Of a stretch of 64,000 bases of DNA, positions 31,309 to 63,084 are shown one piece after another (the stretch's first letter is position 1; each line of letters begins with the position of its first letter). Source of the stretch: Arthrobacter sp. Leaf234. Lineage in GTDB: Bacteria; Actinomycetota; Actinomycetes; Actinomycetales; Micrococcaceae. The position numbers and the translations under genes are program-made. The DNA lies in contig NZ_LMLU01000001.1 of NCBI RefSeq assembly GCF_001422665.1, positions 91,282 through 155,281 on the forward strand, in the 5' to 3' direction. Below the pieces are notes generated by a model, which did no database searches, had not been told where the DNA came from, and worked only from the letters and a program-made list of their open reading frames with translations.

Positions 31309-31316
31309 TATTTCCC

Positions 31317-31405
31317 GGCCCCTCATGTGGTGTCATCCTGTGAACTCCCCCAGGACCGGAAGGTAGCAAGGGTAAGCGGGCTCTGGCAGGTGCATGGGGG
31401 GTCTT
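31317..31405 (+). ncRNA. ffs: Small bacterial signal recognition particle RNA (4.5S type)
   Basis: The hallmark apical loop region ACCGGAAGGTAGCAAGGGT is present, with flanking TCATCCTGTGAACTCCCCCAG and CTCTGGCAGGTGCATGGG arms. The ends CCCCTCATG (31319-31327) and CATGGGGGG (31393-31401) can form a 9-bp closing stem with one G-U. The RNA binds Ffh for co-translational targeting. Exact ends are estimated to within a few bases. Its place just before gluQRS-dnaX and next to tRNA-Ser is common in actinobacteria. Confidence 0.92.
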
Positions 31406-31440
31406 CACTTTTAAGCGAGTCCAGCCGAGGAGGGTGCACG

Positions 31441-53954: not shown

Positions 53955-55355
53955 TCAGCCGAAGTGCGCCTTCGCGATCAGTCCGTGGACGCCGACGGTG
54001 CGGTCGACCACCTGCGAGATGGCGAAGTCCGCCGCGGCGGACAGGTACGCGTAGGCGATGGCCCGGTCCATGCCGCGATCGTGCTCGAGGAAGTCCAGGG
54101 CATTCACGACGGCGCGGCGCATCGCGACGTCCAGGTCGCTCGACACTCCTCCGCCGGCGAGACCGTCCGGATCGGACAGGCCGATCGGGATCCACGCGTC
54201 CTTGGTCTCCGCGAAGGGATAGGAGTAGGCGACGGACGGCGCATCGCCCGAGCCCGGCTTGCAGACCGTCAGGCGGAAGGTCCCGCGGAGGGACCCTTCC
54301 ATCGCAGTGAGGGCCACCTCGCCGTCGCCCATGCCCATGTGCGGATCCCCGACGTAGAAGAGTCCGCCCGGGGCCCGCACCGGAAGGTAGAAGGTGGAGC
54401 CTGCACCGAGGTGCCGGATGTCGATGTTCCCCCCGCCGAGGGTGGGGGGAACCGAATTCGCCTCGGGGGCCGTCAGTCCCTCGGCCTCGGCGAAGGCGAC
54501 GCCCATCATCCCCATGAAGGGCCGCAGGGGGAACCGGACCTCCATGTCCCCGCTCGTCATCACACCCTTGCCCTTCTCGATCCTGGTGAACACCGAGACG
54601 TTCCCGTAGTCGGTCGGCACACCCGATGCGCGGTTGTCGGTCGCCACCGGTGGCATGACCTCGTCGAGGGTGATGCCGGCGGGTGCGGCGGGGCCCGGGA
54701 GTGATGCCAGGCCGCCCTTGCCGTGCCTGCTGGAGACCACGCCGTACGGGACGCGTGGCACCACGTCCAGGGTCTCGATCTTCAGCACGTCCCCCGGTTC
54801 GGCACCTTCGACGGCGATCGGACCCGTCACGATGTGCGGCCCGTCCACGTCGAACCGCCGCTGGGTCCGCCGGTAGCCCGCCGCGATCTCGACGGCGTCC
54901 GTCAGCACGGAGGATCTGTCCACGCCCAGCGACCCGAAGTACTCCAGCGGATCACGCCCTTGGTCCTCGAGGATCCCCTCGTGCGAGAGCGCGTCGATGG
55001 TCACGGTCCTCCCGGACCGGATGGTCATCACCGGCGTGGCGTGCACCGTGGGCACGTACCCCCACAGCACCTCGTCCGGCGTGGACGAGAGGTAGCTGTC
55101 CCCCGTGATCCGCCCCCGTCCGGGCTGCAGGACGTCGGCGCCGGGCCCACCCTTGCCAGGCGGCTTCCCCGGGGCGTCAGGAGCCTTGGCAGGCACGACG
55201 ACGCCGCCTCCGGGAGCGGTTGCGAGCGCGGAGGGTGCCCCCGCGACCGACGCCGCGGACAGGGTGCCGAGCGCCGCCACCACCCTCATGAATCTCCGCC
55301 TGCCCAATCCGTCGGCGAGTACCTCGGCCGCTTGCTGCCCCACTGCGTCATCCAT
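53955..55355 (-). CDS. Tat-exported acetamidase/formamidase-family protein
   Basis: 466 residues. N-terminal twin-arginine signal GRRRFMRVVAALGTLSAASV, an Ala/Pro/Gly-rich linker, then an FmdA/AmdA fold: VTIDALSHEGILEDQGRDP, DGPHIVTGPIAVEGAEPGDVL, MEVRFPLRPFMGMMGVAFAE, GGNIDIRHLGAGSTFYLPV, GDPHMGMGDGEVALTAMEG (all family blocks with the metal-binding His/Asp/Glu). Normal FmdA is cytosolic and hydrolyses formamide or acetamide; a Tat leader, implying export of a folded metalloenzyme, is uncommon. AAGAGG at 7 nt precedes the ATG. A lone gene upstream of the surface-protein cluster. Confidence 0.88.
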   Translation of the reverse strand: MDDAVGQQAAEVLADGLGRRRFMRVVAALGTLSAASVAGAPSALATAPGGGVVVPAKAPDAPGKPPGKGGPGADVLQPGRGRITGDSYLSSTPDEVLWGYVPTVHATPVMTIRSGRTVTIDALSHEGILEDQGRDPLEYFGSLGVDRSSVLTDAVEIAAGYRRTQRRFDVDGPHIVTGPIAVEGAEPGDVLKIETLDVVPRVPYGVVSSRHGKGGLASLPGPAAPAGITLDEVMPPVATDNRASGVPTDYGNVSVFTRIEKGKGVMTSGDMEVRFPLRPFMGMMGVAFAEAEGLTAPEANSVPPTLGGGNIDIRHLGAGSTFYLPVRAPGGLFYVGDPHMGMGDGEVALTAMEGSLRGTFRLTVCKPGSGDAPSVAYSYPFAETKDAWIPIGLSDPDGLAGGGVSSDLDVAMRRAVVNALDFLEHDRGMDRAIAYAYLSAAADFAISQVVDRTVGVHGLIAKAHFG

Positions 55356-57600: not shown

Positions 57601-58017
57601 CTACAGCCCCAGGGCGGGGGCCTCCATGACGGGGCAGGTGTCCATGACGACCTCGAGCCCGGCGTCCGCGGCCCGACGGGCGGCGTCCTCGTCGATGACC
57701 CCCAGCTGCAGCCACACCGCACGCGCCCCCACGGCGATCGCCTGATCGACGACGGCGCCGACCCGGCTCGAGTTCACGAAGCAGTCGACGACATCGATGC
57801 TTCCCGGGACGTCCGCGAGGCGCGTGTAGCCCTTCTGCCCGTGGACGTCGTCGCCCTTGAGGCTCACCGGGACCACCTCCATCCCGAGCCTGTCCATCAG
57901 GAACCTCGACACCCCGACGGCGGCCCTCCGCGGATTGTTCGACAGCCCGACGACGGCCCACCGCCCGTGCTCGCCCAGGAGCCTGCCGATCACGGCTGGA
58001 TCGTTCCAGTGTGCCAT
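57601..58017 (-). CDS. CoA-binding-domain protein (YccU-like)
   Basis: 138-residue Rossmann protein: WAVVGLSNNPRRAAVGVSRFL gives the nucleotide loop, followed by VVPVSLKGDDVHGQKGYTRL, VDVVDCFVNSSRVGAVVDQAI and AVWLQLGVIDEDAARRAADAG, the CoA_binding_2 pattern. Such proteins bind CoA; activity unproven. ATG 58017 with AAAGAGG upstream. Divergent from the riboswitch-led operon. Confidence 0.88.
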   Translation of the reverse strand: MAHWNDPAVIGRLLGEHGRWAVVGLSNNPRRAAVGVSRFLMDRLGMEVVPVSLKGDDVHGQKGYTRLADVPGSIDVVDCFVNSSRVGAVVDQAIAVGARAVWLQLGVIDEDAARRAADAGLEVVMDTCPVMEAPALGL

Positions 58018-58052
58018 GTGCCTCTTTCCGATGCGTCGAGCCCGCGCGGGGA

Positions 58053-58083
58053 TTGTTACAGCCTTTGTTACATGCCCTATTTT
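58053..58083 (+). promoter_or_regulatory. Promoter of riboswitch-led operon, with direct repeat
   Basis: TTGTTACA occurs twice (58053-58060 and 58065-58072), 12 bp apart; TATTTT at 58078-58083 may be the -10. Predicted start near 58090. The repeated octamer could be an activator site or contain the -35. Confidence 0.45.
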
Positions 58084-58116
58084 GCTCCTGCCGTGCAGCG
58101 GGCGTTTCATGGGAGT

Positions 58117-58282
58117 GACCATCCCGAGCGGCCGAGAGACCTGGATCAGTGAAGCCGCAGCAACCCTGGTCGTCGTGCATCCCCCGGACGCGCGGCGATA
58201 GCGAGGTCCGAGCCCTGGGAACCACCGCTCCGCGGTGGCGAAGGCCCGGTCCGTAGGGTGCTACCGCCAGGACCGATGGAGA
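58117..58282 (+). promoter_or_regulatory. SAM-class (S-box, SAM-I/IV type) riboswitch
   Basis: The 5' half follows the S-box core closely: P1 5' strand CCATC (58119-58123), GCGGC pairing with GCCGC around GAGAGAC and CAGTGAA, then AGCAACC (58158-58164). A CGTCGTGC/GCGCGGCG stem follows as P3, an inserted hairpin (CCACCGC/GCGGTGG), then GGTGCTACCGCC and the P1 3' strand GATGG (58275-58279). The normal P4 of SAM-I is not clear, so it may be a SAM-I/IV variant. The SD (GGAG, 58278-58281) overlaps P1, suggesting that SAM binding blocks translation of the downstream ABC ATPase. Confidence 0.75.
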
Positions 58283-58286
58283 CACC

Positions 58287-59111
58287 ATGACTGCAGTTCT
58301 GGCACCCGGCACCACCCGCACCACCTCCAAGCAGGCCCTCGGCGTGCACTTCTCCGGCCTGGGTCGGAGTTTCGGCGCCGCAGGCAGCCGCCGCGCGGTC
58401 CTTCGGGACGTGTCGGTGGAGGTGGAGCCGGGCGAGATCCTGGCCATCCTCGGCACGAGCGGCTGCGGCAAGTCCACGCTCCTGCGGGCAGCCGCGGGAC
58501 TCGACGTGCCGGACAGCGGTGAGGTCCTGATCGACGGCACGCCCGTCTCCGGGATCGACGAACGCTGCGCCGTGGCCTTCCAGGAACCGCGCCTGCTGCC
58601 CTGGCACACGCTGCAGGCCAACGTGGCGATCGGACTGCCCAAGTCCTCGAGTGCCAGCGCGGGAAAGGCGAAGGTCCTCGAACTGCTGAAGCTCGTGGGC
58701 CTCGACGCCTTCGCGAAGCACCGTCCGCGGGAAGTCTCCGGCGGCATGGCGCAGCGCACCTCCCTGGCACGGGCCCTCGCCCGCAATCCCGGCGTCCTGC
58801 TGCTGGACGAACCGTTCGGGGCACTCGACGCGCTGACGCGCCTCCGGATGCAGGACCTCCTCCTCGACGTCCACAGCGCGCAGCCCACCACGGTGCTGCT
58901 CGTGACGCACGACGTCGACGAGGCCCTCCAGCTCGCGGACCGCATCCTGGTCCTCGGGCGCGACGACGACGGCCACGACGACGCACGCGAGGGCTCCACG
59001 ATCACGGAGCTCGTCACCGTCCCGGGCGCCCGGCCACGGGACCGCAACTCCGCGGATCTCGGCGCGCTCCGCAGCTCGCTGCTCTCCCTGCTCGGCGTCA
59101 CCGGGCACTAG
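58287..59111 (+). CDS. NitT/TauT/SsuB-type ABC transporter ATP-binding protein
   Basis: 274 residues. Walker A LGTSGCGKSTLLRAAAG, Q-loop VAFQEPRLLPW, signature VSGGMAQRTSLARALA, Walker B GVLLLDEPFGALDALTRLRMQ and H-loop LLVTHDVDEALQLADRI. PRLLPW and FGALDALTR are typical of sulfonate, taurine and nitrate importers. First gene after the SAM-class riboswitch; SD GGAG 5-6 nt upstream. Works with the next two genes. Confidence 0.93.
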   Translation: MTAVLAPGTTRTTSKQALGVHFSGLGRSFGAAGSRRAVLRDVSVEVEPGEILAILGTSGCGKSTLLRAAAGLDVPDSGEVLIDGTPVSGIDERCAVAFQEPRLLPWHTLQANVAIGLPKSSSASAGKAKVLELLKLVGLDAFAKHRPREVSGGMAQRTSLARALARNPGVLLLDEPFGALDALTRLRMQDLLLDVHSAQPTTVLLVTHDVDEALQLADRILVLGRDDDGHDDAREGSTITELVTVPGARPRDRNSADLGALRSSLLSLLGVTGH

Positions 59112-59195
59112 CCCGCCCTCCGCCGCACTGCCCGCCGGGGACTTCCCGGGCGCCCTCGCTCCCTTTCCGCACCTCCCTTTCGATGAAGGACCACC

Positions 59196-60236
59196 ATGAA
59201 CCGCCGCGCCCTCCTGCCCACCCTCGCCCTCGCCTCCGCGCTCTCGCTCAGCCTGAGCGGGTGCCTCGCAGGTGAGAACGCCTCCGATACCGCCCCTGCC
59301 GCAGCGGACGGCGGCACGCAGGGCGGCACCCTGAACATCGACTTCGCCACGTACAACCCCCTGAGCCTCATCATCAAGGAGCAGGGCTGGCTCGAGGAGG
59401 AACTCGCCGACCAGGACATCACCGTCACCTGGGTGCAGTCCGCGGGCTCCAACAAGGCGAACGAGGCCCTGCGCGCCGGAGCGATCGACGTCGGCTCCAC
59501 GGCGGGATCGGCAGCGCTCCTCGCCCGGTCCAACGGGTCCCCCATCAAGGCCATCGACATCTACTCGCAGCCCGAGTGGTCCGCCCTGGTGACGCTGCCG
59601 GACTCGGGCATCACGAGCGTGGAGGACCTGCGCGGCAGGTCCATCGCTGCGACCAGGGGTACCGACCCCTACTTCTTCCTCCTGCAGGCGCTCGAGGCGG
59701 CGGGCGTGGACCAGTCCGAGGTGACCATCGAGAACCTGCAGCACGCGGACGGCCGCGCGGCACTCGCGAGCGGCGCCGTCGACGCGTGGGCCGGCCTCGA
59801 TCCGATCATGGCCGCGGCGGAGCAGGACGGCGCGCAGCTGTTCTTCCGCGACATCGACTTCAACAGCTACGGGTTCCTCAACGCGACGGAGGACTTCCTC
59901 GCGGAGAAGCCCGACGTCGCCCAGACCGTGGTGAACGCCTACGAGAAGGCGCGGGAGTGGGCCAAGGAGAACCCCGAGGAGACGGCAGCCATCCTCGCGG
60001 AGGTCGCTGCCATCGACCCGGCGGTCGCGAACTCCGTCATCATCGAGCGCACCAACCTCGACGTCGACCCGGCCCCGGGTGACGCGCAGCGCGCCGTGCT
60101 CGAGAAGATCGGCCCCGTGTTCGTCGAGACCGGCGACGTCCAGTCGCAGGAGCAGATCGACGAGGCCCTCGGGTCCCTCCTCGATCCCTCGCTGGTCGAG
60201 AAGGCCGATCCCGCCTCGATCGGCGCCGGCTCATGA
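59196..60236 (+). CDS. Aliphatic-sulfonate-type substrate-binding lipoprotein
   Basis: 346 residues. Lipobox LSLSGCLA, Cys near residue 24. SsuA/TauA-type fold: YNPLSLIIKEQGWLEEEL, VQSAGSNKANEALRAGAIDV, GSPIKAIDIYSQPEWSALV, EDLRGRSIAATRGTDPYFFL and WAGLDPIMAAAE. The ligand is not fixed by motif; the riboswitch makes an organosulfur compound likely. It ends 4 bp into the permease gene (ATGA). Confidence 0.9.
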   Translation: MNRRALLPTLALASALSLSLSGCLAGENASDTAPAAADGGTQGGTLNIDFATYNPLSLIIKEQGWLEEELADQDITVTWVQSAGSNKANEALRAGAIDVGSTAGSAALLARSNGSPIKAIDIYSQPEWSALVTLPDSGITSVEDLRGRSIAATRGTDPYFFLLQALEAAGVDQSEVTIENLQHADGRAALASGAVDAWAGLDPIMAAAEQDGAQLFFRDIDFNSYGFLNATEDFLAEKPDVAQTVVNAYEKAREWAKENPEETAAILAEVAAIDPAVANSVIIERTNLDVDPAPGDAQRAVLEKIGPVFVETGDVQSQEQIDEALGSLLDPSLVEKADPASIGAGS

Positions 60237-61126
60237 GCTCCGAGGTGGGGCAGCGGGCCGTCCCGATCAGCCGGGCCGGGTTGGCGGCCATCGGCTCTCC
60301 CGTCACAGCCGAGGACGCCGTCGGCCGGGGCGATGTCCCGGCAGGGTCCGGCAGCGGTGCCCGGCGCAGCACGGGACGCCGCATCGGCATCATCCTCCTC
60401 GGCCTGATTGTCCCCGCCCTCCTGCTGCTCGGCTGGCACCTCAGCACGGCGTCGGGCTTCTTCAAGCCGTCGCAGCTGCCCTCCCCCGCCTCGGTCCTCG
60501 CGGCCGCCGTCGACCTCGTGGACCGCGGCCAGCTCGCCACGCACATCCTCATCTCCACCCAGCGCGTGGTCCTCGGCTTCCTGATCGGGTCCGTGCTCGG
60601 CGTGGTGGCTGGCGCGGTCCTCGGCCTCTCCCGCGTCGCGGACATCCTGCTCACCCCGACGGTCGGCGCCCTGCGCGCCGTCCCGTCGCTGGCCTGGGTG
60701 CCGCTCCTGGTCCTGTGGATCGGCATCAACGAGGACTCGAAGGTCACCCTGATCACCATCGGCGCCTTCTTCCCCGTCTTCACGACGCTCTACCTCGGAC
60801 TGCGCCACGTGGACCGGAACCTCGTCGAGGCGGCCCGGGCCTTCGGGGTCAACGGCCTGCGCCTGCTGACCACGGTGCAGCTCCCCGCCGTCGTGCCCGC
60901 CCTGTTCTCCGGCCTGCGGCTGGCGCTCGCCCAGTCGTGGCTGTTCCTCGTCGCGGCGGAGCTCATCGCCTCGTCGATGGGGCTCGGGTTCCTGCTCGTC
61001 GACTCCCAGCAGAACGGGCGCGTGGACCGCATCCTCCTCGCCATCATCCTGCTGGCGATCATCGGCAAGACCACGGACGCCCTGCTCGGGATCGCCGAGC
61101 GCTGGGCGGTGCGCCGGTGGGCCTAG
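60233..61126 (+). CDS. SsuC/TauC-type ABC transporter permease
   Basis: 297 residues: polar N-terminal ~45, then six spans. The ABC-permease EAA-type loop is EAARAFGVNGLRLLTTVQLPAVVPALF; RAVPSLAWVPLLVLWIGI and WLFLVAAELIASSMGLGFLL are characteristic of the sulfonate/nitrate family. Its end overlaps the start of the CoA ligase by 10 bp. Confidence 0.93.
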   Translation: MSSEVGQRAVPISRAGLAAIGSPVTAEDAVGRGDVPAGSGSGARRSTGRRIGIILLGLIVPALLLLGWHLSTASGFFKPSQLPSPASVLAAAVDLVDRGQLATHILISTQRVVLGFLIGSVLGVVAGAVLGLSRVADILLTPTVGALRAVPSLAWVPLLVLWIGINEDSKVTLITIGAFFPVFTTLYLGLRHVDRNLVEAARAFGVNGLRLLTTVQLPAVVPALFSGLRLALAQSWLFLVAAELIASSMGLGFLLVDSQQNGRVDRILLAIILLAIIGKTTDALLGIAERWAVRRWA

Positions 61127-63084
61127 GCACGACGACGCACGCCGCGGCACCCGCGCAGGACGAGGCGGCGCGCCTGGCCTTCTGGGCCGAGCAGGCGGCC
61201 CGGCTCGAATGGACCGGACCCTGGGACACACTGCACTCCTTCGCGAAGGCAGAGCCCCGGGCGGACGGGACGCTGAGCGTCCCCGTCATCGAATGGTTCG
61301 CCGGCGGAACCCTGAACGTCGCCGTCAACTGCGTGGACCGGCATGTCCGTGCCGGTCGCGGGGACCGCGTGGCCCTGCACTTCGAGGGTGAACCCGGTGA
61401 CCGCCGGACGGTGACCTACGCGGACCTGCAGGACGAGGTGTGCCGTGCGGCGAATGCGCTGCTCGCCCTCGGGATCGGGAAGGGCGACCGCGTGGTCGTG
61501 TATCTCCCGGTCCTCGTCGAGACCGTCGTCATCACCCTCGCGTGCGCGCGGATCGGCGCGGTCCACTCGCTCGTCTTCGGCGGGTTCTCCGCCGAGGCGC
61601 TGCGCTTCCGCGTGGAGGACACCGGAGCCAGACTCCTCGTCACCACGGACGGCCAGTACCGCCGCGGAACGGCCGTGCCGGTCAAGGCGAACGCGGACGC
61701 CGCCGTGGCGGGCAGCAGCAGCATCGAGCACGTCCTCGTGATCCGGCGCACCGGCTCGGACGTCCCGTGGACGGACGGCCGCGACGTCTGGTGGCACGAC
61801 GCCGTCGACGCCGCGCCCAGCGACCATGAGCCGGAGGCGTTCGACGCCGAGACGCCCCTGTTCATCATGTACACCTCGGGGACCACGGGCAGGCCGAAGG
61901 GTCTGGTCCACACCGCGGGCGGTTACCTCACGCAGGCGTCGTGGAGCTTCGAGCACCTGTTCAGCCACCCCGATCCGGCGCAGCGCGACGACGACGTGCA
62001 CTGGTGCACCGCCGATCTCGCCTGGGTGACGGCACACACCTACGAGATCTACGGTCCGCTCTCCAACGGCGCCACGCAGGTGATCTTCGAAGGCACACCC
62101 GACACGCCCCACCCCGGCCGCCACTTCGAGATCATCGAACGCTACGGCGTGACGAGCTACTACACGGCGCCCACCCTGGTCCGTTCCCTCATGGGCTGGT
62201 TCCCGGACGGTGTCCCGTCCACCTGGGACCTCTCGAGCCTCCGCGTCCTCGGGACGGTCGGCGAGGCCGTGAACCCCGAAGCCTGGCGCTGGTTCCGCCG
62301 GAACCTCGGCCGCGACGAGCTCCCCGTCGTCGACACGTGGTGGCAGTCCGAGACCGGCGCCACGATCCTCTCCCCCAGCCCCACGGACTCCTCGTTCAAG
62401 CCGGGCTGCGCGGCGCGGGCCCTGCCGGGGGTCTCCACGCGGATCGTCGACCGGCACGGCGCGGCGGTGCCGGCGGGCGAGCAGGGCCTGATCGTCGTCG
62501 ACCGTCACGGCCCCGCGATGGCCCGGACCGTCTGGGGCGATCCCCAGCGCTACCTCGACTCCTACTGGCGGATGTTCGCTGCCGAGGGCTGGTTCCTCGC
62601 CGGCGACGGCGCGCGGTACGACGACGACGGCGACACCTGGATCCTCGGGCGCGTGGACGACGTGATCAACGTGTCCGGTCACCGGCTGTCGACGATCGAG
62701 ATCGAGTCGGCCCTCGTCGCCCACCCGCTCGTCGTCGAGGCGGGCGTGTGCCCGATCGCCCATCCGGTGACGGGCCATGCCATCGCGGCCTTCGTGGTGC
62801 TGGCCACCGGTACCGATCCGTCGATCGACGTCTCCGGGACGCTGCGGGCCCAGGTCGCCGAGGCGATCGGCCCGATCGCACGCCCCTCGGCCGTCGTGGT
62901 CGTCGAGGACGTGCCGAAGACGCGCTCCGGCAAGATCATGCGGCGCCTGCTCACGCAGCTCTTCGAGGGCACGGAGCTGGGGGACACGACATCCCTGCAG
63001 AACGAGGGGTGCATCCCCGGGATCCAGGACGTCCTCCGCCTCAGCGTCCGAGGCGCTACTCCGGCAGGTCTGCCCCGCGGTTAA
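61117..63084 (+). CDS. Acetyl-CoA synthetase-like AMP-forming CoA ligase
   Basis: 655 residues. Acs-family N-terminus (VIEWFAGGTLNVAVNCVDRH), ATP loop YTSGTTGRPKGLVHTAGGY, TADLAWVTAHTYEIYGPLSNGAT, VLGTVGEAVNPEAW, WWQSETGATILSP with the Trp that limits the acyl pocket to small acids, and the acylatable Lys in KTRSGKIMRRLL. Differences from typical Acs (WVTGHSY to WVTAHTY, VGEPINP to VGEAVNP, TETGG to SETGA) lie at the pocket, so the acid may not be acetate. GTG at 61117 overlaps the permease; the SD is weak, suggesting coupling. Probably activates the imported compound or a product of it. Confidence 0.88.
   Translation: MGLGTTTHAAAPAQDEAARLAFWAEQAARLEWTGPWDTLHSFAKAEPRADGTLSVPVIEWFAGGTLNVAVNCVDRHVRAGRGDRVALHFEGEPGDRRTVTYADLQDEVCRAANALLALGIGKGDRVVVYLPVLVETVVITLACARIGAVHSLVFGGFSAEALRFRVEDTGARLLVTTDGQYRRGTAVPVKANADAAVAGSSSIEHVLVIRRTGSDVPWTDGRDVWWHDAVDAAPSDHEPEAFDAETPLFIMYTSGTTGRPKGLVHTAGGYLTQASWSFEHLFSHPDPAQRDDDVHWCTADLAWVTAHTYEIYGPLSNGATQVIFEGTPDTPHPGRHFEIIERYGVTSYYTAPTLVRSLMGWFPDGVPSTWDLSSLRVLGTVGEAVNPEAWRWFRRNLGRDELPVVDTWWQSETGATILSPSPTDSSFKPGCAARALPGVSTRIVDRHGAAVPAGEQGLIVVDRHGPAMARTVWGDPQRYLDSYWRMFAAEGWFLAGDGARYDDDGDTWILGRVDDVINVSGHRLSTIEIESALVAHPLVVEAGVCPIAHPVTGHAIAAFVVLATGTDPSIDVSGTLRAQVAEAIGPIARPSAVVVVEDVPKTRSGKIMRRLLTQLFEGTELGDTTSLQNEGCIPGIQDVLRLSVRGATPAGLPRG

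Follow-up and report, generated by a model that had tools for sequence, protein, structure and literature searches.

Introduction

In Acinetobacter, organosulfur scavenging by Sfn and Msu proteins takes dimethyl sulfide to sulfite, as outlined in PMC13352529. This route, the aliphatic sulfonate importer SsuABC, the SAM-I class (RF00162) of S-adenosylmethionine (SAM) riboswitches and the acetyl-CoA synthetase (Acs, AcsA) of Salmonella enterica are the described systems closest to an operon found in a 64,000-nucleotide stretch of Arthrobacter DNA (the window). The operon lies on the plus strand and is composed of a SAM-I (S-box) aptamer (58116-58282), the genes for the ATPase (58287-59111), substrate-binding protein (59196-60236) and permease (60233-61126) of an ATP-binding cassette (ABC) importer, and a gene for an acetyl-CoA synthetase paralogue (61117-63084, GTG start), here called the ligase. 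The permease gene overlaps that of the binding protein by 4 nucleotides and the ligase gene overlaps that of the permease by 10, with a gap of 84 nucleotides between the ATPase and binding protein genes. The closest named locus, among the best 80 of 560 relatives, is that of Arthrobacter bussei, with a ligase that is 97% identical. An earlier interpretation made from the letters alone (the sequence-only reading) had already described this tight gene order, together with a SAM-class switch and a sulfonate-type importer.

The importer resembles SsuABC in having an ATPase, a binding protein of the SsuA family and an SsuC-like permease. Indeed, the binding protein scores above the cut-off of TIGR01728 (211.8 versus 163.5 bits), in agreement with a sulfonate-type importer, and its nearest solved structure by sequence is the aliphatic sulfonate-binding protein 2x26 (E 1.6e-22). 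It differs from SsuABC in that the SsuB/TauB-like ATPase (ABC_tran, PF00005; best NCBIfam match 192.8 bits, to the aliphatic sulfonates model PRK11247 with its cut-off of 395) and the permease (PF00528; SsuC PRK11365, 170.4 bits against 347) fall below the SsuB and SsuC equivalog cut-offs. Furthermore, no SsuD-type alkanesulfonate monooxygenase (TIGR03565) exceeds its cut-off in the genome, where the best match among the 7 of 7 candidates scored (152.4 versus 518.2 bits) is SfnG itself. The SfnG dimethylsulfone monooxygenase, encoded in the neighbouring operon, is what the locus shares with Sfn/Msu scavenging; the differences, besides the lack of an SsuD-type enzyme above the cut-off, are the SAM aptamers and the joining to metY and to an Acs.

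In passages of a survey of riboswitch regulons from 2013, Corynebacteriaceae and Mycobacteriaceae are the only Actinobacteria named, and the main text of the survey does not contain the words sulfonate, Micrococc or Arthrobacter (PMC3766115). In the open-licence literature, judged by title and start of the abstract, nothing was found on a SAM-controlled acetyl-CoA synthetase or on SAM aptamers in the sulfonate operons of the family to which Arthrobacter belongs.

Computation established which genes and aptamers are present, that the synthetase is inherited almost without exception together with the O-acetylhomoserine sulfhydrylase MetY in the family, and that the acetate pocket is conserved. 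We propose, with moderate confidence, that this acetyl-CoA synthetase paralogue is derepressed at low SAM and converts the acetate that MetY sets free back into acetyl-CoA, the substrate of MetX.

Family and substrate pocket of the ligase

The ligase has the full-length architecture of Acs and, like AcsA, passes the NCBI equivalog for acetate--CoA ligases (TIGR02188, 788.5 versus 724.95 bits). It is 55% identical to the AcsA of its own genome, encoded at G000:C1:1024292, and forms a separate clade from it (split support 1.0, branch 0.43). Residues were numbered by alignment to S. enterica Acs (PDB 2p20) and followed through 112 ligase sequences, a set that was not de-duplicated, counts the window gene twice and is distinct from the 112 ligase genomes discussed below. 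Val310, Val386 and Trp414 are kept in 112/112 of these sequences and Thr311 in 111/112, and the same residues are found in 20/20 AcsA paralogues. From the S. enterica structure, Val310, Thr311 and Val386 are taken here to line the acetate pocket. Trp414 is reported to be the residue that sets the acyl range of Acs (PMC10455477). Given this pocket and the family to which the protein belongs, the simplest reading of the ligase is that of an acetate enzyme, with acetate as its presumed substrate.

The sequence-only reading had attributed altered pocket motifs to the ligase. This is correct for the neighbours of the pocket, which differ from AcsA (G308A, G312A and T416S in 112/112 sequences, L316E in 110/112); it does not apply to the four pocket residues, which are unchanged. 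The same reading had suggested uptake through the importer of a small organosulfur acid, such as sulfoacetate or a methylthio acid, from which the ligase makes a CoA ester for sulfur assimilation. The conserved changes beside the pocket are in favour of this. Nonetheless, since the four pocket residues, Trp414 included, match those of canonical Acs, an organosulfur acid is unlikely as substrate; an AcsA-like pocket with this tryptophan should exclude a sulfonate or methylthio group, and the acetate equivalog also speaks against it. No sulfoacetate--CoA ligase family of the SauT type appears among the best 25 of 103 NCBIfam matches, a comparison at the level of families in which no direct sequence comparison was made. 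It is also very doubtful that the second-shell changes have retuned the clade to a non-acetate acid of the sulfur regulon, which would give, together with MetY, a CoA-dependent assimilation of organosulfur compounds.

Besides the clade and the substitutions, what distinguishes the ligase from AcsA is the SAM riboswitch and the linkage to metY and sfnG. The two share the motif of Lys609, presumably the site where Acs is controlled by acetylation, which is kept in 112/112 ligase sequences. This suggests ordinary Acs acetylation control and, together with the equivalog, favours simply another synthetase of acetyl-CoA (or propionyl-CoA) that was caught in a sulfur operon and contributes to the general supply of acetyl-CoA, its linkage to MetY being historical. 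The distribution of the gene, described next, makes this explanation unlikely.

Co-inheritance with MetY

The presence of the genes was compared in 149 genomes of the family, with counts that are not corrected for shared ancestry. The ligase clade was recognized by a cut in the match list and, in the 51 genomes without a listed ligase, by searching with a fragment of 231 residues. The fragment search added 14 ligase genomes, 14/14 with the signature residues of the clade, and the 17 other genomes that could be inspected have the AcsA signature only; the 7 matches just above the cut and the 7 just below it fall on opposite sides by signature and by tree. MetY orthologues were counted above 700 bits, binding proteins above 340 bits and SfnG with all 40 matches. 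The searches for these three proteins scored up to 11, 14 and 12 candidates per genome, respectively, and single misses are possible.

The ligase clade is present in 112 of the 149 genomes, the MetY orthologue in 115, the binding protein of the importer in 79 and SfnG in 40. No ligase genome is without MetY (0/112), and MetY occurs without the ligase in 3/115 genomes (G097, G098 and the fragmented G148). The phi coefficient with the ligase is 0.95 for MetY, 0.55 for the binding protein and 0.24 for SfnG. Eleven genera vary in the ligase: in 8 of them every genome examined carries both ligase and MetY or neither, and in each of the remaining 3 a single genome departs from this pattern. When the 5 fragmented or incomplete genomes are dropped (n = 144), 109 genomes with the ligase remain, all with MetY and 35 without the binding protein. 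Eight further ligase-holding genomes from outside the 149, chosen for having the ligase (Leifsonia, Cellulomonas, Kocuria, two Rathayibacter, two Frigoribacterium and one of the Microbacteriaceae), all contain this MetY with 68-80% identity; they were checked as part of a set of 13, of which the other 5 (G003, G069, G095, G119 and G133) belong to the 149.

The binding protein is missing from 35/112 ligase genomes and occurs without the ligase in just 2/79. From these counts and those of MetY it follows that the genomes with the importer fall almost entirely inside the set of ligase genomes, and that ligase and MetY are nearly inseparable. The sequence-only reading had tied the ligase to sulfur supply, and this is upheld, with MetY as its closest partner. 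It had also held that homologous operons lacking the ligase would speak against its proposal; because the binding protein is so rarely found without the ligase, the proposal is not refuted on this ground.

Two candidate partners of the ligase were rejected on these counts. The importer is ruled out as an obligate partner, even though few genomes have it without the ligase. SfnG is ruled out as the partner by its absence from 75/112 ligase genomes.

A synthetase for general acetyl-CoA supply would not be expected to be joined to MetY in 112/112 genomes nor to be lost jointly with it within 8 genera, and that it occurs in several different arrangements, with a SAM aptamer over each of them, points in the same direction. 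The tighter co-inheritance with MetY than with the importer or SfnG also bears on another explanation, in which the acetate or C2 acid taken by the synthetase stems from the breakdown of an imported organosulfur compound and not from MetY. Examples would be the remnant of a desulfonated C2 sulfonate, or acetate from the N-acetylated intermediates of S-alkylcysteine salvage. The position of the synthetase in the importer operon at many loci supports such a source. So do the monooxygenases of the NtaA/DmoA family and of SfnB-like type that relatives encode close to it, several of them under SAM aptamers. Given the phi values and the lack in the genome of an SsuD-type monooxygenase above the cut-off, this explanation is considered improbable.

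Gene order and aptamer placement in relatives

Gene order was compared at 111 non-redundant loci out of 121, after omission of 4 in which no full ligase gene was called (L081, L095, L134 and L152) and of 6 near-duplicates. The permease is directly 5' of the ligase in 51/111 loci, sfnG or metY is directly 3' in 43/111, and both arrangements are combined in 11; the other 32 of these 43 have no permease before the ligase. In Pseudarthrobacter sulfonivorans a single run contains the genes for ATPase, binding protein, permease, ligase, SfnG, MetY and a CoA-binding protein. In Nesterenkonia the genes are divided between two aptamers, with the importer under the first and, under the second, a flavin-reductase-like gene together with those for the ligase, MetY and the CoA-binding protein.

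Aptamer placement was followed in the 80 named loci that rank best among the 560 relatives. In 26 of them the ligase gene is immediately preceded by a SAM aptamer; in 31 the aptamer heads an importer-ligase operon, and in 5 a single gene separates it from the ligase. No aptamer was found before the ligase unit in 18/80, 7 of which have less than 3.5 kb of upstream sequence. For aptamers directly before the ligase, 5 of the 7 loci submitted to Rfam score above the gathering threshold.

Whether a sulfur-containing acid is imported and then activated can be judged from these data together with the pocket. Operon and switch are shared in the window, the permease often directly precedes the ligase, the binding protein seldom occurs without it, and sulfur-scavenging monooxygenases are found nearby in relatives. 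On the other side, about a third of the ligase genomes have no binding protein and none is without MetY, and in many loci the ligase has an aptamer of its own. The conserved pocket and the occurrence of the ligase beyond the importer genomes thus make it highly unlikely that the ligase activates the imported compound, as the sequence-only reading had it. The organosulfur acid as ligase substrate is weakened by both the pocket residues and the 35 genomes without the binding protein. Pocket conservation and joint inheritance can in this way put right a guess drawn from operon order.

In many relatives (L125, L104, L154, L089 and related loci) genes for NtaA/DmoA-family monooxygenases and for SfnB-like oxidoreductases, the latter below the SfnB cut-off, are found near the ligase. 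Several of these genes are directly under SAM aptamers, pointing to a larger organosulfur regulon. A separate observation concerns locus L081, titled Sporosarcina beigongshangi and labelled as a Firmicute, where the run of ligase, SfnG, MetY and CoA_binding is 75-81% identical to that of Arthrobacter; a contaminating contig or wrong labelling of the genome is the likely explanation.

SAM-I aptamers and the predicted switch

The window aptamer keeps the P1-P3 core and the conserved loop motifs of RF00162 and scores 34.9 bits with this model (E 1.3e-5), below the gathering threshold of 44.4. It carries an insertion of approximately 80 nucleotides in one hairpin, and the P4 hairpin is absent. A lineage model built from 39 relatives, among them the sister aptamer of the same genome but not the window copy, recovers it at 84.3 bits (E 1.5e-19; E-values of this model are approximate). 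The 5' strand of P1 is CCATC (58119-58123). Its 3' strand, GATGG (58275-58279), shares bases with the Shine-Dalgarno sequence GGAG (58278-58281), which ends five bases ahead of the ATPase start codon. This leaves no space for a terminator or another separate expression platform, and translation is the likely level of control, with P1 predicted to mask the Shine-Dalgarno sequence once SAM is bound. By a loose pattern and with no control for chance, this arrangement occurs in 124/155 aptamers found by pattern, including 55/57 ahead of the ATPase gene and 21/22 ahead of the ligase gene. P1 is invariant in the 39 aligned aptamers, which were selected for its 3' strand, and so provides no support by covariation. 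The P4 columns are deleted in the sister aptamer, and roughly 13 nucleotides separate P3 from P1 in the alignment. Many of these actinobacterial aptamers, which have no P4, contain a CUGGC/GCCAG complement linking the P2 loop to the segment ahead of P1. Folded without ligand, the sister leader has a minimum-energy structure that does not contain P1 (z-score -1.2, equalled by 20 of 200 shuffles), a result that speaks neither for nor against a switch.

The sister aptamer lies some 0.7 kb beyond the window end (G000:C1:156015) and scores 49.3 bits with RF00162, above the gathering threshold. It heads sfnG (TIGR04021, 620.2 versus 382.95 bits), metY (TIGR01326, 601.8 bits) and a gene resembling the CoA-binding domain of acetate--CoA ligases (43.1 bits, far below the cut-off of that family). 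With 150 of 9668 first-look candidates scored, the lineage model gives these two aptamers and no third at E 0.1 or better in the 3.5 Mb genome. In five loci of Microbacteriaceae and one of Cellulomonas, neither Rfam at gathering nor the lineage model gave a SAM aptamer. At two loci, one of them from Sinomonas, a SAM-IV riboswitch on the minus strand (L089:6440-6551, 94.1 bits; L127:6665-6776, 89.1 bits) is divergent from the SAM-I aptamer at a distance of about 130-140 bases.

Two different proteins with CoA-binding domains flank the module and recur in relatives. One is a CoA_binding_2 protein divergent from the importer (57601-58017, minus strand; PF13380, 116.4 versus 22.8 bits for the longer frame 57601-58119), and the other follows metY (L002:13667-14170, plus strand). 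Elsewhere in the window are a bacterial small SRP RNA (31314-31409, plus strand, 68.5 bits), its sole Rfam match at gathering, and a protein with a weak formamidase-like match (53955-55355, minus strand, 72.8 bits against a cut-off of 500).

Proposed recycling of acetate

In the proposed scheme, low SAM would allow translation from both leaders, and the importer and monooxygenases would gather organic sulfur. MetY couples sulfide or methanethiol to O-acetylhomoserine, with one acetate set free per homocysteine or methionine formed. The synthetase would convert this acetate to acetyl-CoA, from which MetX makes further O-acetylhomoserine. Such a role would account for the closer tie of the synthetase to MetY than to the importer, for the shared SAM switch and for the acetate-type pocket. 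The genome encodes a MetX-family protein, whose 431.2 bits are below the curated cut-off of 500; none of 14 control genomes attains that cut-off either. It also encodes two NtaA/DmoA-family monooxygenases at other sites. In engineered Corynebacterium, feeding of acetate raises O-acetylhomoserine (PMC8922893).

Several observations weigh against the scheme. The genome has an ordinary AcsA and a second MetY-like match, and MetY paralogues of about 49-54% identity are common, with no such partner noted for them. Both synthetase and MetY are absent from 34 of the 149 genomes. In 19 of 98 loci with 6 kb or more on either side, metY does not lie within the available sequence. The changes beside the pocket could alter the substrate, and the rarity of the binding protein without the synthetase leaves some probability to a link with the importer.

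If correct, the scheme would place an acetyl-CoA synthetase under a riboswitch of the methionine pathway and close the acetate loop of the acetylation route to methionine. It would connect the scavenging of organosulfur compounds with methionine synthesis and the acetyl-CoA economy in a widespread family of soil bacteria.

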